From Verrucomicrobium sp. BvORR106 (lineage in GTDB: Bacteria > Verrucomicrobiota > Verrucomicrobiia > Verrucomicrobiales > Verrucomicrobiaceae): a stretch of DNA of 64,000 nt. Under the pieces are notes generated by a model. That model saw only the letters and a program-made list of their open reading frames with translations. It ran no database searches and had not been told where the DNA came from. Both the position numbers and the translations under genes were made by a program. The DNA lies in the NCBI RefSeq assembly GCF_000739655.1, contig NZ_BATR01000094.1, positions 62,001 to 126,000 of the forward strand. Reading direction: 5' to 3'. Shown here one piece after another: positions 23,857 through 62,217 of this stretch. Numbering within the stretch: position 1 is the stretch's first letter; every line of letters begins with the position of its first letter.

Positions 23857-26800
23857 CTATTGGGCGGCTGCGGCTGCCGCGGGCATCCAATTCGCTGCGG
23901 TGGGGTAGCCATAGTCAGTGAATTGTTTGAGGGCGGTTTCGGGTTGCAACTCGGCGAGTGCTTGCGCGGGACTGTCAAACACATCCAGCGGTCTGGGCAT
24001 GGCCAGATGGACCAGCGCAACGCTCTGGTTGGGCTGTAGGTTGAGATCATAGCGAATGAACAGACCGCGATTGCCTTCCAGGACGAGTTTTCCTTGAGCG
24101 GTGCCCAAAGAGGAACCCGTAGCGAGCAGCAAAGCTGGATGGTTGGCTCCCTTGAAGACTATGGCCACTTTCCCACCAGTCTTTGAGGCATCCACCGGAG
24201 TCGTGATGGTGATCGGTTGTCCGTCTGCTCGCAGGAGCGAGGCGATTTGATCGCTGGCAATCACCGCCAGATCCAGCCGGGTTTGGAGGGGCTGGTTCGT
24301 TTGATTGGTGAGCGTGTCGTGGACAACGTAGAGACCTTGCTCCTTGGACCACTGATGGCGACGGCGGATGGCAGTAGTGCCTGCGCGATCCGCAGCGTCG
24401 GAGTTGTAGCGCAGAGGAGACTGGCCGGGAGTTTCAATGTTGGTCTTTCCCATGATACCAACCGGGGCACCGTTCAGCCAGGGCACCAGGAATTGCTCGG
24501 CCCCCAACTCCGACTTCATGCCGTCGAACGGGTGCCCCAGGGTGCGCCATTTGAAGCCCAGAGCGTCGGGCATCATTCCATCGGGCGCGTAGGCCCCATT
24601 TGGCGGGAGCAAGCGTTGGAAGGCTTGTTGAGCGTCCTTTTCGACCGTCACATTCGCGAGAAAGGGAGTATGCAACCGGAATGCATTCAGGGCCGCGATG
24701 GAAGGTCTCCAAGAGGAGAGCGATTGATCCGCGGGCACGGTTGAGGCCTTTTTGCTGATATTGACGACGTGGCCGAAGGTCAGACGCTCGAAGGGGGCCA
24801 GTCGGAGATGCCATGTCGAGATCACTGCCCGAAGGTCGGTGTCCCAGCTGACGACGGGACGATGGGTGGCGGAGGGAGTGGCGAAGTTAGCCATGACCAC
24901 CCGTTGGGTTTCACCCTGCCGGATGGCGCAGGCTACAGCGTCAGCACCGAAGAAATCACCCGAAAACGGGGAGACTTGCATGCCGTTGTCGGTGGTTCTG
25001 GAAATAATGAGGTTCGCCGGAGAGCCGCCAAGCCTCGTAATGAAGCTAGCGGTGATCTCCACAGGATTGGCGTTGTTGTTCTCCAGCATGTCCCGCCAGT
25101 CGAAATTTCCATCGTTCCTGCTGGTGATGAATCGTCGCATGCGAAGTCCTGGAACGGGGCAGTCGAGATCCGAACCGGACAGAATCATGCTGCCGGAAGC
25201 GAAGTTCACTTTGGAGCTTTGGGTCTTGTGAACCAGAAGAGGAGATCGATTGATGATCCACTGACCTAGATGAAGTTTGGCATCGTCGCAGCGGTGGGTG
25301 CCGTCTGGTTCGATCACAAAGGTCTCTCCAGTTTTCAGAGTCAGCGGAGGTGGCGGCTGTCCCTCTGCCGTTCGCTGAGGAGAGCCCTTTTCAAAATTCA
25401 CGGAGCGAATTGGTTCAGGGGCGGTCGCAAGCTGAAATTCCGTCGGAGCCCCTTGTGCGGCCATGGCTGCGACGCTCCACAATGAGACGGAGCCGTCCGT
25501 AAAACCCACGGCCAGCCCCTTGCTGTCCGGGCTGAAGGTGGATGCATTCGGGTCGTTCTGGAGCGGTGGCGAAACGTACACAGGGTTGCCACTCTCCAAA
25601 TCGATCAGGCAGAGCTTGGTGCCGTCCTTGGGGGAGATGGATGACAGCAACCAGCGCCCATCTGGCGAAAACGATTTTGGCGACTGCCAACCGCTGGTCT
25701 TCGGCGGGAAGATCTCTTTCACCACGGCGAAGGTGTCGCCATCCACGATGGAGATGTGTTTCGTGTCGTGGACGGCAAGCTGGTTCTTTTGACCGGAGTA
25801 GCCAAAGATCTTGCCATCGACCTTGTTGGCCGACTGGCGGAAAGTGTCCTTGTCCAGATCATAGCCGTAAAACGTTCCGTCGTGCATGTAGAGCAATTCG
25901 TTGCGCAGGGAAGAGAAGAACGAAGCGTAAACGGGGTACGGTATGTCTCTGGGCAACTTAAGTCTCCTGACGACTTCGGGGCGGTCGGGGTGCCGGATGT
26001 CTGTGAATCTGGCATGAAAGCCCGTGGAGAAGAGGCACTGGCCGGTTTTTGGGTCCATGCGGACGCGGCGGAATCCCCTACGGAGATCCGGGTCCTCTGA
26101 TTCGAGTGCCCTCTTGAACAACAAAGTGCCGACGATGGGAGGAGAGGGGGGCGATGGGCTGCTGGCTGGGATCTGCCATTTCAGATGTTGGTTGACGTCT
26201 CCTCCGATCAGCGTCCTGCCATCCGGCATCCAGGCCATTTCTGTAGGAGAACTGGGCTCTGGGCTGACCAGGGTGTATTCCTGGGTGCCGTCGCTGGTGC
26301 GCCAGACGGCGACGCCAGTGGTGTCGGCTGTAACAAGCCGTTTTCCGTCTGGGCTAAAAGCCATGTGTTGAATGCGGTTGCGATGGCCGGGAGAACGGTC
26401 CGGCTCATGCTGCCAGGTTTCAGTATTCACCGCGACCAGGGGGTAGCAGGTGTTCCAGAAGCGCGGGCCTGACGGGGCGAAAGTCCCGCAGAGACATTCG
26501 GTCGTGGATTCATGCAGCACTTTGCGATCCGCCAGCCGGATCACCTTGTGCATGCCAATTCCTGATATCACCAACGTGCTCTCATCTGGGGAGAGGGTGA
26601 TGCGGTTGAAGCCGCGTCTTCCGCCACTGGCGGTGAGAGACCAGATGGACACCCTCTGATTGGGGTCGTGATTTACGGCACCTTCGAATTCCTTTGCGTA
26701 TTGCGTCCCTTGCCACTGAAAGACGATGTACCGCCCGTCGTCCCACAGCACCAGCCACCGGCCGCTGGCACTGAGGGTCAGCTTCCCTTCGGTCCAGTCC

Positions 26801-27567
26801 TCCTGTGGCTCACTGACAGGGGTGGGGGACCATTTTTCAGAACTGAAGCTGGTGATCCGGTGCTGGGGATCGAACGCCGGAGAAAGCAATACCTGCCGGG
26901 GGCCGAATGCCACCGCCTCATTAATGAGCACTCGTGGGGAGGTGGCCACCTGGGTTTGGGCGAGAACGGAGCCGGTCGTGGCATCAATCTTGGAGACGAG
27001 GACGGCGCCAGCAGAGTGTTCGGTGACGAGGGCCAGCGTTGCCGACTGGTCGGTAAAACCTTTCCAGCTGACGGTTGGGACACGTAGTGCCCAGAGTCCG
27101 CTGAGATCTGCCGTGTTGTTCATTCGTACCTCTGAGGTTCTCGCTTCTGTGGAGTATCCCAGAGTGAGAATTCGGCCGCCGTCAGGCGAAAGCGCCCAAC
27201 TGCCGGGGCCTGAGATCCTTCCAGTCCGCTGCAGTTCGCGGTTGTCCACGGAGGGTTGCCAGATATCGATATCTGATCCGGCAACGCTGCTGGCGAACAG
27301 TTTTGTGCCGTCCGGCATCCAAGCGGTCTGTTCGATCTCGTCCGATCTCTTCGTGGGATCACCCAGCCAGCGGATCAGTCCTGAAACAGTGGTTTGTGGG
27401 GGATCTACGACGAGAGCCGGGGGAGTGTCCGCCTTGGGGAAGGGGACTTCCAGTTCCTGCGAAGAGGCAGGACTGAGGGATGCCAAAGCGATGCAGAGAA
27501 TGCTGGAAGGGCCCGAAAACGCGAGGGCAATACGACGGAGAGAAAGTCGGGGGTAAGGTGGGGACAT
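23857..27567 (-). CDS. Large secreted WD40/beta-propeller protein, second sister copy
   Basis: The 1,236-residue product is the last gene of a three-gene operon after HtrA and its sister. Its start has a signal peptide (RIALAFSGPSSILCIALASLS, split around SQE). From about residue 60 to 680 it has repeated WD40-type blades: AWMPDGTKLFAS, ALSPDGGRILTLG, AFSPDGKRLVTAD and AWMPDGRTLIGG. The C-terminal third has no family I recognise, with FERLTFGHVVNI, PDALGFKWRTLGHPFDGMKS and ANHPALLLATGSS. The ATG at 27567 is favoured by an upstream AAAGGA; the frame itself extends to 27774. It is about 60% identical by eye to the gene at 27647-31348. Confidence 0.85.
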   Translation of the reverse strand: MSPPYPRLSLRRIALAFSGPSSILCIALASLSPASSQELEVPFPKADTPPALVVDPPQTTVSGLIRWLGDPTKRSDEIEQTAWMPDGTKLFASSVAGSDIDIWQPSVDNRELQRTGRISGPGSWALSPDGGRILTLGYSTEARTSEVRMNNTADLSGLWALRVPTVSWKGFTDQSATLALVTEHSAGAVLVSKIDATTGSVLAQTQVATSPRVLINEAVAFGPRQVLLSPAFDPQHRITSFSSEKWSPTPVSEPQEDWTEGKLTLSASGRWLVLWDDGRYIVFQWQGTQYAKEFEGAVNHDPNQRVSIWSLTASGGRRGFNRITLSPDESTLVISGIGMHKVIRLADRKVLHESTTECLCGTFAPSGPRFWNTCYPLVAVNTETWQHEPDRSPGHRNRIQHMAFSPDGKRLVTADTTGVAVWRTSDGTQEYTLVSPEPSSPTEMAWMPDGRTLIGGDVNQHLKWQIPASSPSPPSPPIVGTLLFKRALESEDPDLRRGFRRVRMDPKTGQCLFSTGFHARFTDIRHPDRPEVVRRLKLPRDIPYPVYASFFSSLRNELLYMHDGTFYGYDLDKDTFRQSANKVDGKIFGYSGQKNQLAVHDTKHISIVDGDTFAVVKEIFPPKTSGWQSPKSFSPDGRWLLSSISPKDGTKLCLIDLESGNPVYVSPPLQNDPNASTFSPDSKGLAVGFTDGSVSLWSVAAMAAQGAPTEFQLATAPEPIRSVNFEKGSPQRTAEGQPPPPLTLKTGETFVIEPDGTHRCDDAKLHLGQWIINRSPLLVHKTQSSKVNFASGSMILSGSDLDCPVPGLRMRRFITSRNDGNFDWRDMLENNNANPVEITASFITRLGGSPANLIISRTTDNGMQVSPFSGDFFGADAVACAIRQGETQRVVMANFATPSATHRPVVSWDTDLRAVISTWHLRLAPFERLTFGHVVNISKKASTVPADQSLSSWRPSIAALNAFRLHTPFLANVTVEKDAQQAFQRLLPPNGAYAPDGMMPDALGFKWRTLGHPFDGMKSELGAEQFLVPWLNGAPVGIMGKTNIETPGQSPLRYNSDAADRAGTTAIRRRHQWSKEQGLYVVHDTLTNQTNQPLQTRLDLAVIASDQIASLLRADGQPITITTPVDASKTGGKVAIVFKGANHPALLLATGSSLGTAQGKLVLEGNRGLFIRYDLNLQPNQSVALVHLAMPRPLDVFDSPAQALAELQPETALKQFTDYGYPTAANWMPAAAAAAQ

Positions 27568-27646
27568 GGGGGATTCCTTTTTCATTCGTGACTGTGCCCG
27601 ATGGGTTCCTGCTTTCTGGGGACTCGATGGGGTGCCAGTCATGAAT

Positions 27647-30600
27647 TTACTGGGCGGATGTATTGGTGCCTGGCGACCAGTTCGCCGCCGCAGGATAGCC
27701 GTATTCAGTAAACTGCTTGAGGGCGGGTTCGGGTTGCAACTCGGCGATGGCTTGAAGGGGGCTGTCGAAGGCATCTAGTGGCCTGGGCATCGCCATGTGA
27801 ACCAGAGCGACACTTTGGCTGGGTGCCAAGTCCAGATCGTAGCGAATGAACAAGCCGCGATTGCCTTCCAACACGAGCTTTCCCTGAGAAGTACCCGAGG
27901 GTGAACCTGCGGCCAGCAGCAAGGCCGGTTGGTTGGCTCCTTTGAAGATGACGGCCATTTTCCCGCCGATCTTGGAGACTTCGACTGGAGTCGAGATGTC
28001 AATCGGACGACCATCTGAAGCCAGGATGGATTGGATTTGATCACTGGCGATCACCGCCAGATCGATCCGGCTTTTAAAGGGTTTGTCTGTCAGATTCGTC
28101 ACGGTATCGTGGACAATGTATTGTCCCAGCTCTCTGGACCACGCGTAACGGCGGCGGATGCCTGTGGTGGCCGTGCGGTCCGTCGCTTCAACATTGAAGC
28201 GCGGGGGAATTATTCCTCGCGTTTCGAAGTTGGTTGTCGTCAACATGCCCACAGGCGCGCCGTTGAGCCATGGGACAAGGATCTGCTCTGCCCCCAGCTC
28301 GGAACTCATCCCATCGAAGGCATGCCCCAAGGCGCGCCATTTGAAACCAAGCGTGTCAGGCATTGTGCCATCCGGCGCATAAGGACCGTTCGGAGGAAGC
28401 ACCTTATCGAAGGTATCTTGGGAGCTCTCTTCCAGCGTTACGTTGGCAAAAAAGGGTAGATTGAACTGGAACGCACTCACTACGGCATCGGTGAGGTGCC
28501 AATTTCCAAGTGACTGGCTCGCTGGCTGTGTCGCGGCGGTTTTTGTCACGTTGACAATGTGTCCAAAAGTCCGACGCTCGAATGGAGCCAGCTGCAGGTG
28601 CCACGTTGAAACAACCGCCTGGAGACCGGCATCCCACTTCACGGCCGGGCGGAGTGGAGCCGAAGGGGTGGAGAGGCCGGCCAAAATGATCCGCTGAGAA
28701 TCCCCCTGCCGGACGGCGAAGGCGATGGCACTGGCATCAGTGAGAGTGCCGGAAGAGGGCAGCTTCTGCGTGTTCGAGGGGGACGTGGGGAGAATCAAGT
28801 CCTTCTCGGCGGCCCCCGGCTGAATCACGAATGACGCCGTGACCGTGACGGGTTTGGAGCTAATGTTTTCCAGGCTATCGCGCCAGTGGAACTGTCCTTG
28901 AGACCTGGCGACGAGCGTGCGGCGCATTCTCACGCCAGGAATGGAGCTATCCAAGTCCGAGTTTAAAGTAAGCTGGTTTCCAGCGGGAAAGTTGACCTTT
29001 TGGGTTCGGAACTTGTGCACCGTGGGAGTGGTGCCGTTGATCATCCACCGACCGAATTGAAGTTTGGCGGCATCGCAATCGATGGTGCCATTCGGATCAA
29101 TGATCATTTCCTCCCCGGTCTTCAAGGTCAGTGGAGGCGGCTGATCACCCTCAGACGATTTTTCCGTAGTTCCTTTTTCAACCCAGGAGACCCGGCCAGA
29201 TGCCGACGCTTGGGCGAGCTGGAAGTCCTGCGGCGCTCCTGCGGCGACCATGTCCCTGACACTCCAGAGCGAGGCGGTACCGTTGTTGAATCCGATTGCA
29301 ACCCCCTGACTGTCGGGACTAAAGCTCACGCTGGTTGGATATTCCTGCGGTGGTGAAACGTACACTGGCTTGCCGCTTTCGAGATCAACCAGGCAAAACG
29401 TGAAGCCGCGGGAGTTGTAGCTGGGCGTAAGTGTGGCAACCATCCAGCGACCATCCGGAGAGATGTCAGCCCCTTCACTCCAATGTCGGTTCACAGGAGG
29501 GAAGATCTCCTTGAGCACGGCGAAGGAGTCCCCATCAACGAGGGAGATGCGCTTGGCATCACGTACTGCCAGTTGGTTCTTTTGACGGGAGTATCCACAG
29601 ATGAATCCGTCCACCGTATGGGCAGATTTGCGCAGGGACTCTTTTTCCAGGTCGTAACCGTATATGACGCCGTCGGTGGCGTACAGCAGCTCGTTTCGGT
29701 TGGAGGAAAAGAATGAAGTATAAAAGGGGTAAGGGGCACCTTGGGGCAGTTTGAGCTCTCGAACCACGTTGGGGCGGTCTGGATGCCGGAAATCGGTGTA
29801 GTTGGCGTTCCGGCTGGCGGAGAAGAGGCAGAGGCCGGTCTTGGGGTCCATGCGAACCCGACGGATCCAGGAATAACGGAAGTCCTCCTGTGCTACCACC
29901 GAGTGCTTGAACAGGGGGGTGCCCTCGATATTGCGTGCGGGGCTAGTCGGCGGGCTTGGCGGGATCTGCCACTTCAGTTGCTGGATCTTGTCACCGCCAA
30001 CGAGAGTCTTGCCATCGGGCATCCACGCGAATTCGGTCATGGGGCCGTCCCCGGAACTGGTCAGCGTGTATTCCAATGTTCCGGAATGGGTGCGCCAGAC
30101 GGCTAGGCTCTCAGCGTCTCCGGTGACGATGCGACTACCATCCGGGCTGAACTCCAGGTGACGAAGACGCTCGCGATGCCCTGGTGTGCGGTCGGGGACG
30201 CGTTCCCAGTTTTGAGTGTTCACGGGGGTGAACGGGCGGCAGGAAGTCCAAAAGCGGTTGCCTGAGGGAGAGAACACGCCGCAAAGGCACTGAGTGGGAG
30301 ATTCATGCAGCACTTTGCGATCCGCCAGCCGGATCACCTTGTGCATGCCGACGCCGGAGACAATCAGGGTGCTTTCATCCGGCGATAGCGTGACGCGGTT
30401 GATTCCCCGTCTCGAACCATCGGAATTGAGTGATGAGATCGTGACGGGACTGTCGGGATCGTGATTGATTCCGCCGTCAAAAGCTTGATCGAAGCGGGCT
30501 CCATTCCATCGCATTACTACGTAGCGAGCGTCGTCCCAGACCACGAGCCAGTTGCCGCTTTTGGCGAGGACGAGCCTCCCTCTCGACCATCCGTCAAAAG

Positions 30601-31348
30601 GTTCAGTTATCGGAGTGGGGTTCCAGTTTTCCCCGGTGAAACGAGTGATCCGGAATTGAGCATCAAAGACTGGTGCCAGCAGCATTTGGTCCGGGCCAAA
30701 CGCAACCGCTTCATCGAATGCCCCTTCTTTGGGACTGGCAATGCGTGATTGGGACTTCAACATTCCCGTGGTGGCATCGAGCCTCGACAGATGAAGAACT
30801 TCGGGCGAGTAGCGCGTGATGAGGACCAGCGTTTGCGCATGATCCGTGAATCCCTTCCACCGGATGTTAGAGGCGCGCACCGCCCAAAGGTCAGAGAGGT
30901 CAGCAGTCTTGTTCATGCGCGCGGCAGCTCCGTCAGGGGAGACGGTAAACAAGCGGCTGCCATCCGGGGAAAGGCTCCAGGTGGTGACGCCGGTGAGCCT
31001 GCCGGTTCGCTCCAGTTCAGTGTCGTCGGCGCAATGCCGCCAGATGTCGAGACCGGGCCCGCCAGATCTGCTGGTGAAGAGCTTGGATCCATCCGGCATC
31101 CATTCCAGTTGGGTGATGTCACCGGATCGTTTGGTTGGGGAGCCCAACCACCGGACCAATCCTGGTGCGGAGACCTGGGGCGGGTCGACGACGACAGGAG
31201 GCGGGGAATCCACCTTCGGGAACGGCATCTCCACCTCCTGGGCGGGAGCGATGAGGAAGCCTGTCAGGGTGGCGCACAACACACCGCAGGAGCCTGACAG
31301 CATCCGGCGGAACCGGCGAAACGAAGCAGTGAGGAGGATGGGGGGCAT
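27647..31348 (-). CDS. Large secreted WD40/beta-propeller protein, first sister copy
   Basis: The 1,233-residue product starts 5 bases after the HtrA stop. Signal peptide: RRMLSGSCGVLCATLTGFLI then APAQ. Blade motifs recur: EWMPDGSKLFTS, SLSPDGSRLFTV, TLSPDESTLIVSG, EFSPDGSRIVTGD, AWMPDGKTLVGG and SFSPDSQGVAIGF. The C-terminal third is conserved with its sister (FGHIVNVTKTAA, PDTLGFKWRALGHAFDGMSS) but is otherwise unknown to me. The layout suggests an extracytoplasmic sensor or scaffold that binds a partner through the propeller. A 50-base stretch is identical between the two genes (26507-26556 and 30300-30349). Confidence 0.85.
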   Translation of the reverse strand: MPPILLTASFRRFRRMLSGSCGVLCATLTGFLIAPAQEVEMPFPKVDSPPPVVVDPPQVSAPGLVRWLGSPTKRSGDITQLEWMPDGSKLFTSRSGGPGLDIWRHCADDTELERTGRLTGVTTWSLSPDGSRLFTVSPDGAAARMNKTADLSDLWAVRASNIRWKGFTDHAQTLVLITRYSPEVLHLSRLDATTGMLKSQSRIASPKEGAFDEAVAFGPDQMLLAPVFDAQFRITRFTGENWNPTPITEPFDGWSRGRLVLAKSGNWLVVWDDARYVVMRWNGARFDQAFDGGINHDPDSPVTISSLNSDGSRRGINRVTLSPDESTLIVSGVGMHKVIRLADRKVLHESPTQCLCGVFSPSGNRFWTSCRPFTPVNTQNWERVPDRTPGHRERLRHLEFSPDGSRIVTGDAESLAVWRTHSGTLEYTLTSSGDGPMTEFAWMPDGKTLVGGDKIQQLKWQIPPSPPTSPARNIEGTPLFKHSVVAQEDFRYSWIRRVRMDPKTGLCLFSASRNANYTDFRHPDRPNVVRELKLPQGAPYPFYTSFFSSNRNELLYATDGVIYGYDLEKESLRKSAHTVDGFICGYSRQKNQLAVRDAKRISLVDGDSFAVLKEIFPPVNRHWSEGADISPDGRWMVATLTPSYNSRGFTFCLVDLESGKPVYVSPPQEYPTSVSFSPDSQGVAIGFNNGTASLWSVRDMVAAGAPQDFQLAQASASGRVSWVEKGTTEKSSEGDQPPPLTLKTGEEMIIDPNGTIDCDAAKLQFGRWMINGTTPTVHKFRTQKVNFPAGNQLTLNSDLDSSIPGVRMRRTLVARSQGQFHWRDSLENISSKPVTVTASFVIQPGAAEKDLILPTSPSNTQKLPSSGTLTDASAIAFAVRQGDSQRIILAGLSTPSAPLRPAVKWDAGLQAVVSTWHLQLAPFERRTFGHIVNVTKTAATQPASQSLGNWHLTDAVVSAFQFNLPFFANVTLEESSQDTFDKVLPPNGPYAPDGTMPDTLGFKWRALGHAFDGMSSELGAEQILVPWLNGAPVGMLTTTNFETRGIIPPRFNVEATDRTATTGIRRRYAWSRELGQYIVHDTVTNLTDKPFKSRIDLAVIASDQIQSILASDGRPIDISTPVEVSKIGGKMAVIFKGANQPALLLAAGSPSGTSQGKLVLEGNRGLFIRYDLDLAPSQSVALVHMAMPRPLDAFDSPLQAIAELQPEPALKQFTEYGYPAAANWSPGTNTSAQ

Positions 31349-54594: not shown

Positions 54595-55911
54595 CTATGA
54601 GGTGGCGGAAATGGACGGAGTTTCTGCCGGAGCTGGAGCAGGCTGGATGTCCGGCAAAGCCTGGAGCTTGGTCCGGTTCAGGAAAATGCCCGCGGCGATC
54701 TTGATGAACAAGGTGTAAAGGATAAGACCAAGGGCCCATATCCCGGCGGTGACTTTCCACTCGATGGCGCTGGGGCGGTACTCGACGATCTCGTGCAGGG
54801 TGGAGGGCACGAACCCGGGGATGATGAGGCCCATGCCTTTCTCAATCCAGATGCCGATGAAGGCGAGCACGCAAGCGGTGTTCAGCACCCAGGGATTTGT
54901 GAAGACGCTGGGAGAGAGAAGGAGGCCGGCGGCGACGATGACGAGCCCAACGGAGCACCAGATCCAGGGGACCAGCTCGGTGTGGCCGTGCAGGCCGAAG
55001 TAGAGATAGCGTCCGGAGGAGGTGTGGGCCCCGCCGGTGTAGAACTCCGTAAACACCTCTGAGACGACCATGAGGAGGTTCACCAAAATGGTGATGCGCA
55101 TGATGTTCACCAAGGTGCGGATGGGGCCGTCTCCGAAGTGGCGGCCCACGGCCTGCCGGATGACCTGGATGGCGAGCACGATGAATGCAGGCCCTGAAAC
55201 AAAGGCAGAAGCGAGGAAACGAGGGGCGAGCAGGGCGGTGTTCCAGAAGGGGCGTCCACCAAGGCCACAGTACAGGAACGCCGTGACGGTGTGGATGGAG
55301 ATGGCCCAGATGATGGAGAGAAAGACAAAGGGCACGTACCAGCGGGGATTGGGCGTGAGGCCCAAGTACCGGGTATAGAGCAGATAGGCGCAGATGTAGG
55401 CGTTGATGAAGAGGTAACCGTTGAGCACAATGACATCCCAACTGAGCATGGAGACCGGGAAATTCAGCCTGCCAAAAGGGGGCAGCAGGTGCCAGAAGCG
55501 GTCGGGGCGGCCGAGGTCGCACACCACAAACATGAGGCTCATGATGATGGCGGCGATGGCAAGCAGTTCGCCGATGATCACGATGTCGTGCATCTCCTCA
55601 TCGTGGTACAGATAGGCGGGGATCACCATCATGACGCCGCCTGCGGCCAGTCCGACGAGAAAGGTGAAATTGGCAATGTAGAGCCCCCAGGAGACGTGGT
55701 CGCTCATATTGGTGAGCGCCATGCCGTCCCGCACCTGCACGGCCCAGGCATTGGCTCCGACGAGGAAGACGGCGCTGAGGCAGATCATCCAGACGTAGAA
55801 GACCTTCCCACCATCCAGAGACTCCAGGGCGGCATTGCCCAAGAATCGGCCAAAGCTCCGCCAGGAGAAGGGGCGGGGGACAACAGGACTGGTTGGCGGA
55901 AGATCGCTCAT
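54595..55911 (-). CDS. NrfD/PsrC-type polytopic membrane quinol dehydrogenase subunit
   Basis: The 438-residue product has about ten membrane helices in the NrfD/PsrC order: FYVWMICLSAVFLVGANAWA, LYIANFTFLVGLAAGGVMMV, VCDLGRPDRFWHLLPPFGRL and NFPVSMLSWDVIVLNGYLF are all typical of NrfD. It probably oxidises quinol and passes electrons to the four-cluster ferredoxin encoded 21 bases upstream. This position opposite napDA suggests it feeds the nitrate reductase. Full length (438) is longer than short NrfD (about 320), as in the ACIII/Qrc-related forms. Confidence 0.92.
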   Translation of the reverse strand: MSDLPPTSPVVPRPFSWRSFGRFLGNAALESLDGGKVFYVWMICLSAVFLVGANAWAVQVRDGMALTNMSDHVSWGLYIANFTFLVGLAAGGVMMVIPAYLYHDEEMHDIVIIGELLAIAAIIMSLMFVVCDLGRPDRFWHLLPPFGRLNFPVSMLSWDVIVLNGYLFINAYICAYLLYTRYLGLTPNPRWYVPFVFLSIIWAISIHTVTAFLYCGLGGRPFWNTALLAPRFLASAFVSGPAFIVLAIQVIRQAVGRHFGDGPIRTLVNIMRITILVNLLMVVSEVFTEFYTGGAHTSSGRYLYFGLHGHTELVPWIWCSVGLVIVAAGLLLSPSVFTNPWVLNTACVLAFIGIWIEKGMGLIIPGFVPSTLHEIVEYRPSAIEWKVTAGIWALGLILYTLFIKIAAGIFLNRTKLQALPDIQPAPAPAETPSISATS

Positions 55912-55932
55912 GAGCGGGGTAGGAATGGCCGG

Positions 55933-56913
55933 TCAGCTGTCGAAGAAGTAGAAGAACTGCGGTTTGAGCCCAAGGTCCTCCTTCAAAATGAAGACACGTT
56001 TATGCTCCAGCACCCAGCGGATCTCGGATTTGGGATCGAGGAGATTACCAAAGACCCTGGCCCCGGTGGGGCAGGCTTCCAGGCAGGCGGGCAGGCGGCC
56101 GTTCCGCGTGCGGTGCAGGCAGAAGGTGCACTTCTCCATGGTGCCTTGAGGGCGAATGCGGTTGCTCAGGTAGCCCTGGTCGGGGTTGATCTCCTCCTTG
56201 GGGATCTCGGGCTTGGTCCAGTTGAACCGACGGGCGTGGTAGGGGCAGGCGGCCTCACAGTAACGGCAGCCGATGCACCAGTTGTAATCCACGACCACGA
56301 TGCCGTCCGGTTCCTTCCAAGTGGCCTCCACCGGGCACACATCCACACAGGGCGGGTGCTCACATTGCTGGCACTGCACAGGCATGTAGAACTTGTCCGG
56401 CTGGGGCACGGGTTTGTCGTAGTTCACATTGCCCTGCTCCATGTCCATGGTGCCCTTCTGCATCTCGAAGACGCGGATGTAGGACTGGTGGGAGGGGCGG
56501 TCGTGATTGTTCTCGATGTGGCACGCCTCCGCGCATTTCCGGCAGCCGTTGCAGACGCTGAGATTGAGCGCGTAGCCGAACTTCACGCCCTCTTGAGGCT
56601 TCGGATCGGAGATGGTGACCTCCGCGCCGTAGTCGTCCTTGGTTTCCTTTTCCAGGCGGCGCAGCACAATGTTGAGATCCACGAGGGAGAGCTCCTTGTA
56701 GTGACGCTGGAGGAACTCATCTGCGGAGATGTTGGCCGCCCACTCAGTGAGTGGGGCGATGGCGCGGGCAAAGGCGGCGGTCCCGAGGGTGGCCCCCACG
56801 CCTTTCATGACGGTGCGGCGGGAGACGCACCCGCAGTCAGATTTGCCACAGCCGCCGCCTCCGCCGTCCGTGCCGCCATTGCCTTCCTTGCCCGTGGGAC
56901 CGTTGCTGCTCAT
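55933..56913 (-). CDS. Tat-exported four-cluster [4Fe-4S] ferredoxin, NrfC/QrcC-like
   Basis: The 326-residue product has a Gly-rich N-terminus, then CVSRRTVMKGVGATLG (29-44) as a Tat signal. Four cysteine sets follow: CNGCRKCAEAC (121-131), CQQCEHPPCVDVC (181-193), CIGCRYCEAAC (213-223) and CTFCLHRTRNGRLPACLEAC (262-281). It is the electron-transfer subunit of an NrfCD-type complex outside the cytoplasmic membrane. Its start overlaps the end of the cytochrome gene upstream by 4 bases, and the NrfD gene follows 21 bases after its stop, so all three are cotranscribed. Confidence 0.94.
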   Translation of the reverse strand: MSSNGPTGKEGNGGTDGGGGGCGKSDCGCVSRRTVMKGVGATLGTAAFARAIAPLTEWAANISADEFLQRHYKELSLVDLNIVLRRLEKETKDDYGAEVTISDPKPQEGVKFGYALNLSVCNGCRKCAEACHIENNHDRPSHQSYIRVFEMQKGTMDMEQGNVNYDKPVPQPDKFYMPVQCQQCEHPPCVDVCPVEATWKEPDGIVVVDYNWCIGCRYCEAACPYHARRFNWTKPEIPKEEINPDQGYLSNRIRPQGTMEKCTFCLHRTRNGRLPACLEACPTGARVFGNLLDPKSEIRWVLEHKRVFILKEDLGLKPQFFYFFDS

Positions 56914-57632
56914 GGTGTGCCGTGGTGGGGTGGGGATGTAGATGTGGCTGGTTTCAGAGAGGTGGTTTCCTGAAGCTGGTGTCCGGGGAGCGGCACCGAG
57001 ATGCGGTCACGCGGTGGGAAGATCGGCTGAACAAGGGGGAACTTGGGCGCGTGCGGGTCGTGGCAGTTGGTGCAGATGTTTCTGGTACGTGCTCCCCGGG
57101 TGAGGTCCCAGTGGCCGTTCATGCCTCCATGGGCACCATGTTGATAGCTCTCCCACTGGTGGCCGTGGCACTGAGCGCAGAGCTGCATGACATCCGTGAA
57201 CTCCACCCGCTGGTGGTTGGCCAGATGAAGGCTGTTGTAGTCTTGATCGTTGTGGCAGCTGAGGCAGGTGAGATTGCCGTGGACGTAGTTCAGCCCCTGG
57301 TGAAACTGCACCAACTGGGCACCGCTATGAGTCTGGAAGTTGGGCTTGGTGGTGGTGTGGCAGGTGCTGCATGCCACCGCGACGGGTTGGCCGCCGGGGT
57401 CGGTCGTACCAGTGCTTACACGAGGGGCTCCAGAAGGCAGCCGGTAGTGAACGGGGTGCAGCGTGGCGGGCTCAGGAGCCGGGGCGGCTGGCCCGGCCGC
57501 AGCGCCCGCCGCCACAGGCTCCTGCCTGTTGCTGGCGAAGACATGATGGAACACCTGGCCGCCACCAAAGACGAGTACGATGCCACCTGAAAAGATGACC
57601 AAGGCGCGGGCCTGTTTTTTGGAAACCGCCAT
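56910..57632 (-). CDS. Membrane-anchored tetraheme cytochrome c
   Basis: The 240-residue product has one N-terminal helix (ALVIFSGGIVLVFGGGQVF, 10-28), an Ala/Pro-rich linker, and four CxxCH sites: Cys88-His92, Cys123-His127, Cys152-His156 and Cys187-His191. Extra histidines around them can act as second ligands. It probably carries electrons between the NrfCD module and NapAB. The third of three overlapping ATGs (57632) has the best-spaced AAGGA site. It starts an operon divergent from napD (spacer about 190 bases). Confidence 0.9.
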   Translation of the reverse strand: MAVSKKQARALVIFSGGIVLVFGGGQVFHHVFASNRQEPVAAGAAAGPAAPAPEPATLHPVHYRLPSGAPRVSTGTTDPGGQPVAVACSTCHTTTKPNFQTHSGAQLVQFHQGLNYVHGNLTCLSCHNDQDYNSLHLANHQRVEFTDVMQLCAQCHGHQWESYQHGAHGGMNGHWDLTRGARTRNICTNCHDPHAPKFPLVQPIFPPRDRISVPLPGHQLQETTSLKPATSTSPPHHGTP

Positions 57633-57822
57633 CATCATTATCCTTGCGCAGTGGTTAATTACCGGGAATAATAGCGCGACTCGTGACATCGTGTAAACAA
57701 AACAATGTGAGAGCTGCCGTGCGTTAAAAGACAGAACCGGGCCAGCTCTGCGTGCGGGACATCCGCAGAGGGGTTGGAGGAGTCAAAATAGCCATCTTCA
57801 CAGTGGGGACTGTTGCATCATC

Positions 57823-58104
57823 ATGCCCGTGAGCGGACTTCTCTTAACCTTGTCCACAGAGGAACACGTGGCTGCGGAAGTGGTGCGGCGTTTGCAATCC
57901 CGTCGTGAGATCCTCTTGGGGGAGCTGCAGCAGCAGTGGCTGCCTGTCGCGGTGGACGGGTGCGATGAAAGGCACAGCCGCGAGGTGCATGACTGGATTG
58001 TCAAGCTGCCGGGGGTGGTGTTTGTCGATGTGGTGTCAGTTCATTTTGAAGATGGCGAGCAGACTTCGTCGCCACACGCTCTGACAGACTGCAAAGCTGC
58101 CTGA
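57823..58104 (+). CDS. napD: NapD, Tat-signal-binding chaperone for NapA
   Basis: The 93-residue product matches the short ferredoxin-like NapD fold: VSGLLLTLSTEEHVAAEVVR at the start and VHDWIVKLPGVVFVDVVSVH near the end. NapD binds the twin-arginine signal of NapA and holds it until cofactors are inserted. It lies 15 bases before napA, in the same operon. The first gene of the plus-strand nap unit, it shares its promoter region with the divergent cytochrome gene. Confidence 0.88.
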   Translation: MPVSGLLLTLSTEEHVAAEVVRRLQSRREILLGELQQQWLPVAVDGCDERHSREVHDWIVKLPGVVFVDVVSVHFEDGEQTSSPHALTDCKAA

Positions 58105-58119
58105 TCTGCCAACACTCCC

Positions 58120-60564
58120 ATGAAGATGAATGCGACGCTGGATCGACGCGAACTTCTGAAACTCTCCGCCCTGGCCGGAGCGGCGGCGGTGGCTGCATCG
58201 CGGGCGGGCGTGGCGGCACCGGTCGCGCCGTCAGGAGTGACGGCGGCTAATCCCGATGCCGGTATCAAGTGGGACAAGGCCCCCTGCAGGTTCTGCGGGA
58301 CGGGCTGCCATGTCCGGGTGGGGGTGAAGGAGGATCGGGTGGTGGCCATTGAAGGCGAGCCGCTCGCGGAGGTGAACAAAGGCCTGCTCTGCGTGAAGGG
58401 GTACCATGTGGGGCTGGCCCTGTACGGGCGAGACCGGCTCACGCACCCGATGCTGCGCAAGAACGGGAAGATGGAGCGGGTGAGCTGGGAGGAGGCTGTG
58501 GATGTGGTGGCCAAGCGCGTCCTCGCGGCACCGGACAAATTTGCGATCTACGGCTCCGGTCAGTGGACCATCCCGGAAGGGTATGTGGCCAACAAGTTGA
58601 TGAAGGCTGGCCTTTCCAACAACCACATCGAGCCGAATGCGCGGCTGTGCATGGCCAGTGCGGTGACGGGTTTTCTCAGCGTGTACGGTGTGGACGAGCC
58701 GGCCGGCGCCTATGATGACCTTGATCATTGCGATGTGTTGATCCTCTGGGGCAACAACATGGCAGAGATGCATCCGGTGCTTTTCAGCCGGGTGATTGAC
58801 CGGCGTGCCCGTGGGGGCAAGGTGAAGATCATCGACCTCGGCACGAGGCGCACCCGAAGCTCGGAGTTTGCCGATCACTACCTGGAGTTCAAGCCCAACG
58901 GGGATCTCGCGATTGCCAATGGCATCGCCCATCTGCTCATTAAGAACGGGACTTATGACAAGGCGTTTGTGGAGCAGCACTGCAACTTCCGCCAGGACAA
59001 GACTGCGGCCTCCTTGAACGGGGAGTCGATGACCTTTGAGGAGTACAAGATGGCTCTGGCACCCTTCACGCCAGAGCATGTGGCAGAGCTCTCCGGCGTC
59101 CCAGCAGAGCAGATTCACATGCTGGCGGACCTCTTTGGCCGCCGGGATCTGCATATCACCAGCACGTGGTGCATGGGGTTCAACCAGCACAACCGGGCGA
59201 CGGACATCAATCGGCTCTGTCACTCCATCCATTTGTTGAGCGGACACTTTGGCAAACCAGGCGACGCTCCCACCTCCCTGACCGGTCAGCCCAGTGCGTG
59301 TGGCACCGCGAGGGAGGTGGGAACGATGTGCCACTTTCTCCCCGGTGGGCGATTGGTGGAGAACGCGGAGCATCGTGCAGAGGCCGAGCAACTGTGGAAT
59401 GTGCCAGCGGGGCGTCTCAAGCCTAAGATGGGCTACCACACGGTGCTGATGTGGGAGAAGTTCTGCACGCCCACGAACCAGGGTGGGGACATCAGTACCA
59501 TCTGGGTGCAGGTCACCAATCCCGGCCAGTCGCTGCCCAATCTGCACAAACTCTTTCAGGCAAAGAAAGGTCTGGAGGACAAATTCCTGATCGTGTCAGA
59601 CGTGTACCCGACGGCGACGACGGAACTGGCGGACTTGGTGTTGCCCTCCGCCATGTGGGTGGAGAAGAACGGCCTGTACGGCAACTCCGAGCGGCGTACG
59701 CAGCAGTGGTTCAAGATGGTGAACCCGCCGGGTGAGGCGCGCGATGATGCCTGGCAGAATCTGGCCGTGGCGCGGCGGCTGCATGACCTGGGGCATCCGG
59801 GGCTGAAAGACAAGGACGGGAAGTTCCTCTTCACCTTCCAGGATGATGCCGGAAAGGAGGTGCCGGTGTGGGAGTGGCCACGGTACTATGAAATGAACGT
59901 GGACAAGGTTCTGTTCGAGGACTACCGGCGCTTCTCCCGGGTGAAGCACAAGGACCTGGCTCCGTATGACGAGTATGTGAAGGCTCGGGGATTGCGCTGG
60001 CCGGTGGTGCAGCAGGCAGATGGGACCTGGCGGGAGACGCGGTTCCGGTTCGCGGAATTTGATGATCCCTATGTGAAGAAGGGGGCGGGGGTGCAGTTCT
60101 ATCATTCCTCGACCAAGGATGACCGGGCGCAGGTGTGGTTCGCCCCCTACACGCCTCCGGCAGAGGTGCCGGATGCGGACTACCCTTTCTGGCTGTGCAC
60201 CGGGCGGGTGCTGGAGCACTGGCACACGGGCACGATGACAATGCGCATCCCGCAACTGCATGGAGCGGTGCCCTATGCTTATGTGGAGATGCACGCCGCC
60301 GATGCGGAGGATCGAGACATTGGCAACGGAGACAGCGTGCTGGTGAAGACCCGTCGCGGGGAATTGCGGCTGCCGGTGTGGGTGAACGGGCGCAGTCGGC
60401 CACCCCGGGGCAGCCTCTTTATTCCCTTCTTTGATGAACGATTGCTGTGCAACCTGCTGACGTTGGAGGTGACCTGCCCCATCTCGAAGGAGCCTGACTA
60501 CAAGAAATGTGCGGCCACGGTGGTGAAGGCAGGGCCGCAGGCTGGAAAGGTGGGGAGCATTTGA
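58120..60564 (+). CDS. napA: Periplasmic nitrate reductase catalytic subunit NapA
   Basis: The 814-residue molybdoenzyme reduces nitrate to nitrite in the periplasm. It has a Tat signal (LDRRELLKLSALAGAAA, 7-23), a [4Fe-4S] site with Cys56, Cys59, Cys63 and Cys91, and the Mo-binding Cys177 in NARLCMAS. The C-terminal LFIPFFDERLLCNLLTLEV and ISKEPDYKKCA match NapA endings. Length is close to the normal 830. napD lies upstream, and the double NapB gene starts just after its stop (1-base gap). Confidence 0.97.
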   Translation: MKMNATLDRRELLKLSALAGAAAVAASRAGVAAPVAPSGVTAANPDAGIKWDKAPCRFCGTGCHVRVGVKEDRVVAIEGEPLAEVNKGLLCVKGYHVGLALYGRDRLTHPMLRKNGKMERVSWEEAVDVVAKRVLAAPDKFAIYGSGQWTIPEGYVANKLMKAGLSNNHIEPNARLCMASAVTGFLSVYGVDEPAGAYDDLDHCDVLILWGNNMAEMHPVLFSRVIDRRARGGKVKIIDLGTRRTRSSEFADHYLEFKPNGDLAIANGIAHLLIKNGTYDKAFVEQHCNFRQDKTAASLNGESMTFEEYKMALAPFTPEHVAELSGVPAEQIHMLADLFGRRDLHITSTWCMGFNQHNRATDINRLCHSIHLLSGHFGKPGDAPTSLTGQPSACGTAREVGTMCHFLPGGRLVENAEHRAEAEQLWNVPAGRLKPKMGYHTVLMWEKFCTPTNQGGDISTIWVQVTNPGQSLPNLHKLFQAKKGLEDKFLIVSDVYPTATTELADLVLPSAMWVEKNGLYGNSERRTQQWFKMVNPPGEARDDAWQNLAVARRLHDLGHPGLKDKDGKFLFTFQDDAGKEVPVWEWPRYYEMNVDKVLFEDYRRFSRVKHKDLAPYDEYVKARGLRWPVVQQADGTWRETRFRFAEFDDPYVKKGAGVQFYHSSTKDDRAQVWFAPYTPPAEVPDADYPFWLCTGRVLEHWHTGTMTMRIPQLHGAVPYAYVEMHAADAEDRDIGNGDSVLVKTRRGELRLPVWVNGRSRPPRGSLFIPFFDERLLCNLLTLEVTCPISKEPDYKKCAATVVKAGPQAGKVGSI

Positions 60565-60565
60565 C

Positions 60566-61489
60566 ATGGCGACTGCGCCTTCATCGGATGTTGCCCGCCG
60601 CGCGAAGTGGCTGAGGATCGCAGGGGTCTTGGTGGTGACCACATCGGTGAGCGGCTTCTTCATGGGGATGCTGCAGACGCGCTCTCAACTGAACCTGACC
60701 GAGCCGCAGCAACTGGTCTCGGATGCACGCGATCTCACCGAAGTGCCTCCAGGCGGGGTGCCGGTGGCGGTGGCCTATGCGAAACAAGACTGGTTAAGGG
60801 AGGGCAGCAACGCGCAGTGGCGCAACGACTTGAGCAAGCTGGTGCAGCCGACTGCGTCGGCCGTCCCATTGCCCGTGCGGACTGCGGACGAGCGGGCGGC
60901 GGCGGTGAGCCAGCGCATGGAGCGTCGCGCCTACGACGGAGCTCCGCCAGTGGTGCCGCATCCCGTGACGCAGGAGTCGTCGGCTTCCTGCCTGGCCTGT
61001 CATGGCCCGGGGCTGGCGGTGAAAGATCGACTGGCTTCGCGGATCAGTCACGAGCACTTCTCAAGCTGCACTCAATGTCATGTGCCCGCCGGTGGCACGG
61101 GGCTGCCGACGGCAGAACAGGGGCTGCTGGCGGCCTTTGGCACGGGAAATAACTTTCGTGGGGTGTCGGCTAAAGGAAAGAGCACGAGAGCCTGGCCAGG
61201 GGCACCGCCCACCGTGCCGCATCCGTTGCTGATGCGCTCGGACTGCCTGAGTTGCCACGGTCCCGTGGGGTTGCCGGGATTGCGGACGAGTCATCCGGAG
61301 CGCCAGCAGTGCGTGCAGTGCCATGTCCAGAGCCCACCCGCAACTCTGGTACCGTTGAGAAATCAAGGGGTGGTGGGAAACGAGGTTGGGAAAGGGGCGG
61401 CGGAGTCTGTAGTGAGGATCGATCTGGTGGAGTTTTTGACTCCGCGTGGAACTGATAGAAGGGAGGGGCGGTCGAATGAAGCTCAATGA
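60566..61489 (+). CDS. Four-heme NapB-like cytochrome made of two NapB modules
   Basis: The 307-residue product has an N-terminal membrane helix (about 16-35), a spacer, then two consecutive NapB-type modules. Module 1: RRAYDGAPPVVPHP (120-133) with hemes Cys142-His146 and Cys168-His172. Module 2: WPGAPPTVPHP (210-220) with hemes Cys227-His231 and Cys249-His253. Ordinary NapB has one module, two hemes and a cleaved signal. A membrane-held double NapB may take electrons straight from the NrfCD-side cytochrome. It overlaps the next gene by 14 bases. Confidence 0.85.
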   Translation: MATAPSSDVARRAKWLRIAGVLVVTTSVSGFFMGMLQTRSQLNLTEPQQLVSDARDLTEVPPGGVPVAVAYAKQDWLREGSNAQWRNDLSKLVQPTASAVPLPVRTADERAAAVSQRMERRAYDGAPPVVPHPVTQESSASCLACHGPGLAVKDRLASRISHEHFSSCTQCHVPAGGTGLPTAEQGLLAAFGTGNNFRGVSAKGKSTRAWPGAPPTVPHPLLMRSDCLSCHGPVGLPGLRTSHPERQQCVQCHVQSPPATLVPLRNQGVVGNEVGKGAAESVVRIDLVEFLTPRGTDRREGRSNEAQ

Positions 61490-61877
61490 GTCCTGCTCGC
61501 GTCGTGAATGGTTGGCTGAGGTCTTTCAACCGTGGAAGCGCCAGAGAGCGGAGGGCGTTCAAGGGCGGCAGGCGATGCCGGTGACCGTGCCGCCGGCATC
61601 AGCTGTAGCCGCTGCGCCTGATCCACCAGTGGCACGGGTGGCAGTGATTCAGGGGCGCTTCTGCGTTGCTCTGACTTCGTTCTGCGCGGTGTGCGTGGAG
61701 CGTTGTCCCGTGCCCGGAGCGCTGCAAATTACCCGTGGCATGCCATCCGTGGTGGCAGATAAGTGCACGGGCTGTGGCGTGTGTTTTGACGTGTGCCCCG
61801 CTCCGCGTAAAGCGGTGCTGATGTTGCCCCTGGCCGGTAGGTTAGGGGCGGGACCTGTGACGAACATGAATCGTTGA
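61476..61877 (+). CDS. NapF-like [4Fe-4S] ferredoxin
   Basis: The 133-residue product has SRREWLAEVF near its start and two cysteine sets: CAVCVERCPVPGAL and CTGCGVCFDVCPAPRKAV. NapF-type ferredoxins help insert or keep the iron-sulfur cluster of NapA in the cytoplasm. The ATG at 61476 lies inside the end of the previous gene with a good GGGAGG site 10 bases before it. It is shorter than NapF (about 165) and shows about two clusters rather than the usual four. Confidence 0.8.
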   Translation: MKLNESCSRREWLAEVFQPWKRQRAEGVQGRQAMPVTVPPASAVAAAPDPPVARVAVIQGRFCVALTSFCAVCVERCPVPGALQITRGMPSVVADKCTGCGVCFDVCPAPRKAVLMLPLAGRLGAGPVTNMNR

Positions 61878-61878
61878 T

Positions 61879-62217
61879 ATGAGTATGAGTGCCGTGAACC
61901 CTGAGTCAGAAACCCAGTCTGCCCCGGTGCCTCTGCCGGAGCTTCACGGCGGCATGATGAACCGTGAGGAGTTGCAGACAATGTTTGCTGACTATCGCGG
62001 GTGCGTGGAAATCACTGAGATCATTCCGAAGTTTGCCGCCCAGGAGCATGTGCCGGAGGTCTCATGCTGGACGCTGGATCATGCGGAAGAGTGGCTGCTG
62101 GGACGCAAAGTCCGGGCCGTGCAGGTACGCTATCGCTACGACGGTGGTGAGTGGTGGGACACGGTCATGATGCTGCCGGAGGGGTATCGGTTGGTGAGGA
62201 TCCGGCATGATTGGTAA
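61879..62217 (+). CDS. Small protein of unknown function, last gene of the nap operon
   Basis: The 112-residue product is soluble and has REELQTMFADYRGCVEITEI, WTLDHAEEWLLGRKVRAVQV and RYRYDGGEWWDTVMM. No cofactor motif is seen; the two cysteines are far apart. It follows the ferredoxin gene with a 1-base gap. The stop codon (TAA of TGG-TAA) lies at the start of the GGTAAG-type repeat. It could be an assembly factor, but nothing in its sequence shows this. Confidence 0.65.
   Translation: MSMSAVNPESETQSAPVPLPELHGGMMNREELQTMFADYRGCVEITEIIPKFAAQEHVPEVSCWTLDHAEEWLLGRKVRAVQVRYRYDGGEWWDTVMMLPEGYRLVRIRHDW

Follow-up and report, generated by a model that had tools for sequence, protein, structure and literature searches.

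Periplasmic nitrate reductase (Nap) that is fed by NapC or NapGH combines NapAB with NapD and a NapF-type ferredoxin. Nap systems independent of NapC are already known, with either NapGH or, in Campylobacter jejuni, the bc1-type complex Qcr as the donor (PMC6195509). The replacement of NapC-family proteins by NrfD-type quinol dehydrogenases is likewise known: SirCD of Shewanella oneidensis, an Fe-S protein with an NrfD/PsrC-type quinol dehydrogenase, is able to replace the NapC-family protein CymA (reportedly not for nitrate), and Cbc4 (CbcSTU) of Geobacter, regarded as a menaquinol:ferricytochrome c oxidoreductase, may be compared (PMC11434368). How NapC is replaced in nitrate respirers that contain NrfH is nevertheless described as poorly understood in a 2025 review (PMC12285233). 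Here, we analyse a nap locus of Verrucomicrobium sp. BvORR106, located at positions 54595-62217 of a stretch of 64,000 nucleotides from contig NZ_BATR01000094.1 (the window), in which the nap genes face a trio of genes termed J, O and P. From the sequence data, we propose that J-O-P serves this Nap system as its dedicated menaquinol dehydrogenase in place of NapC and NapGH, a reading to which we give a probability of roughly 80%. The trio, of a type best known from sulfur respiration, thus becomes a concrete and testable candidate for the NapC replacement in three phyla.

The original prediction, made from the DNA letters alone, had described a napD-napA-(double napB)-ferredoxin-unknown operon divergent from an operon for a tetraheme cytochrome, a four-cluster ferredoxin and an NrfD protein, and this layout is borne out: all eight genes are intact, with J-O-P on the minus strand and napD-napA-napB-napF-like-unknown on the plus strand, separated by a gap of 133 bp.

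54595..55911, minus strand: P, integral membrane subunit of the NrfD superfamily, DsrP type, predicted quinol dehydrogenase (PF03916, 136.7 bits; NCBIfam DsrP, 425.8 bits, cut-off 350; 10 hydrophobic segments)
55933..56913, minus strand: O, protein exported by twin-arginine translocation (Tat) with four [4Fe-4S] cluster motifs, DsrO-like (Tat motif SRRTVMK; four-cysteine motifs at 121, 181, 213 and 262; DsrO, 190.8 bits)
56910..57689, minus strand: J, membrane-anchored tetraheme c-type cytochrome (CXXCH at 107, 142, 171 and 206)
57690..57822, no strand: divergent intergenic region of 133 bp that separates the reading frames of J and NapD (by position)
57823..58104, plus strand: NapD-like maturation chaperone for NapA (assigned solely from position and conservation)
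58120..60564, plus strand: NapA, catalytic subunit of periplasmic nitrate reductase (PRK13532 and TIGR01706 scores; Tat RR motif; Mo-ligand motif; NapA tree)
60566..61489, plus strand: NapB, duplicated, four c hemes (PF03892 over its cut-off in two stretches, E 1.1e-11; CXXCH at 142, 168, 227 and 249)
61476..61877, plus strand: small ferredoxin of the NapF/NapG type, probably NapF-like (Fer4 matches)
61879..62217, plus strand: conserved protein of 112 residues with no assigned function, encoded at the end of the nap operon (most related nap loci have a homologue)

When compared with Nap systems fed by NapC or NapGH, this cluster lacks NapC and NapH, holds a three-protein module instead and has NapB doubled to four hemes. 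In the proposed pathway, P would oxidise quinol in the membrane and pass the electrons to the periplasmic four-cluster protein O, from which they would travel via the membrane-anchored tetraheme J to the doubled tetraheme NapB and on to NapA, which would reduce nitrate to nitrite in the periplasm. The observed basis for this consists of the genes themselves, the absence of the standard donors, a clade-wide linkage and quinone-site residues conserved by spacing. The same chain had been drawn in the original prediction, and its parts make the path plausible; we infer the direction of electron flow and the order of carriers, as well as the type of quinone, the docking of J to NapB and the energetics. 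An NrfD-containing cluster beside nap was reported in 2023 for the Planctomycetota metagenome-assembled genomes OFTM8 and OFTM33; the authors likened it to an NrfD complex that contains actD and whose role is uncertain, and suggested a general part in respiratory electron transfer, without proposing a replacement of NapC (PMC10732223). Both genomes are represented amongst our loci (L083 and L087), each of which holds nap and J-O-P, so that the reported cluster is most likely the same system; no paper proposing J-O-P as Nap donor, or its clade-wide linkage, was found in the openly accessible literature.

The trio had been taken for an NrfCD-type module resembling the non-catalytic part of Qrc or of alternative complex III (ACIII), an assignment that the family scores correct. 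P exceeds the cut-off of the DsrP model, which is matched by all 17 P homologues scanned, whilst it reaches only 50.7 bits with QrcD (cut-off 570) and 32.2 bits with NrfD (cut-off 347.6). The nearest model for O is DsrO, with a score under the cut-off of 200, compared to 157.5 bits for QrcC (cut-off 400) and 116.7 bits for NrfC (cut-off 377.6); J matched no DsrJ model at E 0.1. By score, the trio is thus closer to DsrOP than to NrfCD, Qrc or ACIII, with J neither NapC/NrfH nor DsrJ by model. Gene content agrees: NapA is the sole molybdopterin-type gene in the cluster (no QrcB), the NrfA family is represented genome-wide by an unconvincing, weak and partial PF02335 match (25.2 bits, contig C112), and the cluster, holding J-O-P only, contains none of ActB, ActD, ActE and ActF and, by its open reading frames, neither DsrM nor DsrK. 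J was also considered as a NapC homologue, which was ruled out given its weak and partial Cytochrom_NNT match (16.3 bits against 24.1).

Amongst the closest counterparts is the DsrJOP half of DsrMKJOP from sulfate reducers and sulfur oxidisers, which is the same trio of multiheme c cytochrome, Tat-exported four-cluster ferredoxin and NrfD-family membrane protein. The two systems differ in that J carries four heme motifs where DsrJ has three, and in that here there is no DsrMK in the cluster, no DsrA match in the genome (although the DsrA cut-off was not exceeded by any control genome either) and a linkage to nap. A practical consequence is that annotation pipelines will label P as a DsrP of sulfate reduction despite the lack of a DsrA match in the organism. 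Likened by description, Cbc4 also joins a cytochrome c, a DsrO-homologous Fe-S protein and a membrane subunit, but serves extracellular electron transfer; the resemblance to SirCD is equally one of description.

The quinone-site residues of DsrP1 are Tyr52, Asp106, Ser124 and Asp129 (PMC8076601), for which spacing gives the counterparts Y78, D132, S154 and D159 in P, all invariant in 17 P proteins. Spacing likewise gives counterparts of the DsrP1 half-channel, including the invariant T83, Y100, E115, Y166, H207, T210, R220, R231 and E285 together with the nearly invariant S235. In a profile alignment, K358 of P aligns with ActC Arg395, a proposed gate, with Lys329 found at that site in DsrP1. 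Because of these half-channel counterparts and of the lysine at the Arg395 position, it is possible, though less likely than not, that P couples proton translocation to quinol oxidation, in which case J-O-P in place of NapC might allow Planctomycetota, Verrucomicrobiota and Myxococcota to conserve energy by nitrate respiration through the normally non-conserving Nap. An electrogenic module would mean that the energy yields calculated for nitrate reduction by Nap in these phyla have to be revised.

The same scores bear on the idea that J-O-P runs in the opposite direction, as a Qrc-like quinone reductase drawing on periplasmic cytochromes that Nap merely shares. Qrc, itself a relative amongst the NrfD complexes, reduces menaquinone with electrons from periplasmic cytochrome c3 (PMC6303296, PMC13059093). 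However, P is DsrP-like and not QrcD-like, and the cluster contains no periplasmic hydrogenase or formate dehydrogenase. Nitrate is moreover a high-potential acceptor, so electron flow from quinol is downhill, and we regard a quinone reductase as very improbable.

With regard to the standard donors, the expectation that NapC and NapGH would be missing holds for this organism. Targeted searches of the genome (8.69 Mb, completeness 99.94%) returned 0 Cytochrom_NNT matches for the NapC/NirT/NrfH family, with a positive E. coli control, and no NapH above 213 bits was found either here or in 57 other genomes with this nap system, whilst E. coli exceeded the cut-off. A search of the same genome for an octaheme cytochrome was empty, which shows little as it had no positive control. 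Across the 58 genomes with this nap system, the absence of NapC is only partly general: a NapC/NirT-family match is lacking in 24, whereas the other 34 encode one away from the nap locus. Inspection of 19 such regions revealed a tetraheme reading frame directly before a pentaheme, NrfA-like one in 9, a pentaheme alone in 3 and a tetraheme alone in 2, with 5 not settled by the listing of reading frames. Where they could be resolved, most of the matches are found ahead of or close to a gene for a pentaheme NrfA-like protein and so look like NrfH; several genomes carry both a nap cluster linked to J-O-P and an NrfH-NrfA pair.

The assignment of J-O-P to Nap is supported by its distribution, for which the survey of napA loci called for in the original prediction revealed a systematic link. 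In a NapA tree, J-O-P is present in 33/33 sampled loci of one NapA clade (support of 100 in the Shimodaira-Hasegawa-like approximate likelihood ratio test) from Verrucomicrobiota, Planctomycetota and Myxococcota, compared to 1/17 loci of other NapA clades, with the one exception keeping NapGH and having J-O-P adjoining an octaheme cytochrome. Amongst 286 Verrucomicrobiae genomes, nine encode a full-length NapA, in each case with J-O-P nearby, and there is a P match in 21 of the 277 genomes without NapA (Fisher p 5e-10). For Planctomycetia, NapA was found in 22/198 genomes and P in 15/198, all 15 being NapA-positive with P inside the nap locus (Fisher p 1e-17); the remaining seven NapA belong to another clade, most of them beside genes for a HAO-type octaheme cytochrome, a Rieske protein and cytochrome b. 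In Myxococcota, 23/195 genomes have NapA, of which twelve are of the J-O-P-linked type and all have J-O-P (ten in L239-L247 and L250, two in L126 and L128; L239 with a partial P only), eight are of the canonical type, two belong to the other clade without J-O-P and one was not classified. Many of the loci stem from metagenome-assembled genomes; P in two Verrucomicrobiae genomes is identical to that of Haloferula rosea and Persicirhabdus sediminis. Both of these species, like Archangium violaceum and Roseiconus nitratireducens, are cultured bacteria that carry the system.

A congener (G152) provides a case of loss. There, the flanks of the cluster are kept, with identities of 99% for scpA, 94% for glpD and 74% for the gene on the far side of the nap operon, but all that is left of the cluster in this interval is a stretch of 72 C-terminal residues of P, which indicates that the cluster was once present and was lost as a block. 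These results bear on whether the trio is a chance neighbour in one lineage, kept by hitchhiking. Related trios do adjoin other enzymes and the order around nap varies: of 69 public loci with napA, 54 are divergent and 15 co-directional. Yet the trio is found in every locus of the clade (33/33), across three phyla and through rearrangements of the genes, which implies that it is the partnership that is conserved rather than the order, and the distances of P and NapA correlate (r 0.45, permutation p 0.0005, 50 loci; P against O, 0.65). Given the recurrence in this clade and the disappearance of the whole cluster between the same flanks in G152, the arrangement is not one of chance, and hitchhiking appears scarcely credible.

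Two observations on individual loci may be added. In L035 (G125), J-O-P comes immediately after napA and a search for NapB found none; frameshifts in J and P may reflect assembly error or decay. Regulators of the Rrf2 family adjoin J-O-P in several loci (L032:14210-14683, L079:2526-2942, L084:6932-7348 and L087:9774-10208), compatible with sensing of nitrite/NO or of iron-sulfur status.

Several findings weigh against J-O-P as the dedicated Nap donor. The map of P onto DsrP1 is drawn from spacing. The presence of napA on 69 of the 80 best public P loci, from groups that include Vicinamibacteraceae and Sumerlaeia, speaks for the linkage, as does a contig end less than 1 kb from the J side of the module in ten of the 11 loci without napA; this sample was, however, chosen by P and hence gives no independent estimate. 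More distant copies of J-O-P without napA occur in about 20 other Verrucomicrobiae genomes, where they are followed by an eight-heme HAO-family cytochrome (PF13447; e.g. L048, L050, L052) or lie near multiheme and barrel-like (porin-cytochrome-like) genes. In L038 (G241), whose order is napA-napB-J-O-P-octaheme, a single J-O-P stands between napAB and an octaheme cytochrome. Finally, the BvORR106 genome has another gene of the NrfD family on contig C112, close to a weak multiheme match; its product probably belongs to ACIII, which could feed NapB.

This last finding is consistent with a scheme in which a bc1-like complex, here ACIII, feeds NapAB, whilst J-O-P serves another acceptor and is tied to nap by co-regulation only. 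There is precedent in QcrABC, which feeds Nap in C. jejuni (PMC6195509), and the second Planctomycetia NapA clade adjoins Rieske and cytochrome b genes. However, the cluster holds no gene for another periplasmic acceptor, the genome has no convincing NrfA and gave no octaheme match in the uncontrolled search, and J-O-P is both tied to one NapA clade in all 33 loci and lost together with nap in G152; we thus consider this scheme unlikely.

The distant copies also help to define what J-O-P is. A branch with 100/100 support in the P phylogeny splits them from the nap group, and L037 and L038, both from Verrucomicrobiae, have P in the distant group and yet carry napA. The trio is essentially nap-only within the close P clade, and likewise in Planctomycetia (15/15); the related trios without napA in other Verrucomicrobiae nonetheless touch on the refuting case of the original prediction, in which the trio would be found mostly without napA. 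As those adjoin octaheme or porin-cytochrome-like genes in the absence of napA, J-O-P is, judged by gene context, an interchangeable quinol-dehydrogenase module. The myxococcal locus L232 is instructive in this respect, with the order napD-napA-napG-napH-napB-J-O-P-octaheme and both NapG and NapH over their cut-offs: here J-O-P adjoins the octaheme gene whilst Nap keeps its own donor. No other comparison argues as well for J-O-P as the substitute for NapGH at the other loci.

Other arrangements of these genes were also seen. The regions L038:7880-15779 and L232:929-10428, in which nap, J-O-P and a HAO-family octaheme are joined, are possibly complete nitrate-to-ammonium units. The second Planctomycetia NapA clade, without J-O-P and mostly by HAO-type octaheme and Rieske/cytochrome b genes (L178-L184), represents a possible nitrate ammonification cluster fed by a bc complex. 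In one P subgroup (L055:7666-9354, minus strand, with similarly long P in L056-L060), a cyclic-nucleotide-binding domain (PF00027; 64 bits for L055) splits the NrfD domain into two halves, which suggests that a nucleotide directly controls the quinol dehydrogenase.

Turning to the individual gene products, the true start of J is probably Met18-20 (approximately 57632-57638), which would leave one membrane anchor; a long N-terminal helix (residues 24-55) is predicted in the AlphaFold2 model. Besides CXXCH, His 130, 137, 187 and 213 are invariant in 59 homologues, making four bis-His hemes possible. A comparison of the J sequence with the PDB gave only matches at E >= 0.1, to NrfB and NrfA, and the AlphaFold2 models of J (predicted local distance difference test score, pLDDT, of 79.5) and of the 112-residue protein (88.4) had no convincing PDB match, so that nothing was concluded from either. 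NapA lies just under two cut-offs (PRK13532, 901.8 against 904 bits; TIGR01706, 872.4 against 930.55), with other families far lower, and retains the Tat RR motif, the Fe4S4 domain and the Mo-ligand motif NARLCMASAV at 177. The NapD-like protein has no Pfam or NCBIfam match; its homologues stand directly 5' of napA in many related loci. In NapB, the two diheme repeats are 44% identical to each other (E 4e-16), and four CXXCH motifs are present in 61/62 homologues. The small ferredoxin has an N-terminal SRRxxL that, by inspection, is not followed by a hydrophobic core; its longer homologues score 99.6-109.6 bits with NapG and 57-61 bits with NapF, all below cut-off. The 112-residue protein has invariant Q82, Y85, W92, D94, T95 and R107 and is modelled as an alpha/beta fold. 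Elsewhere in the window, 23857-27774 and 27647-31348 on the minus strand encode a neighbouring pair of proteins, evidently paralogues, with lengths of about 1230-1300 residues.

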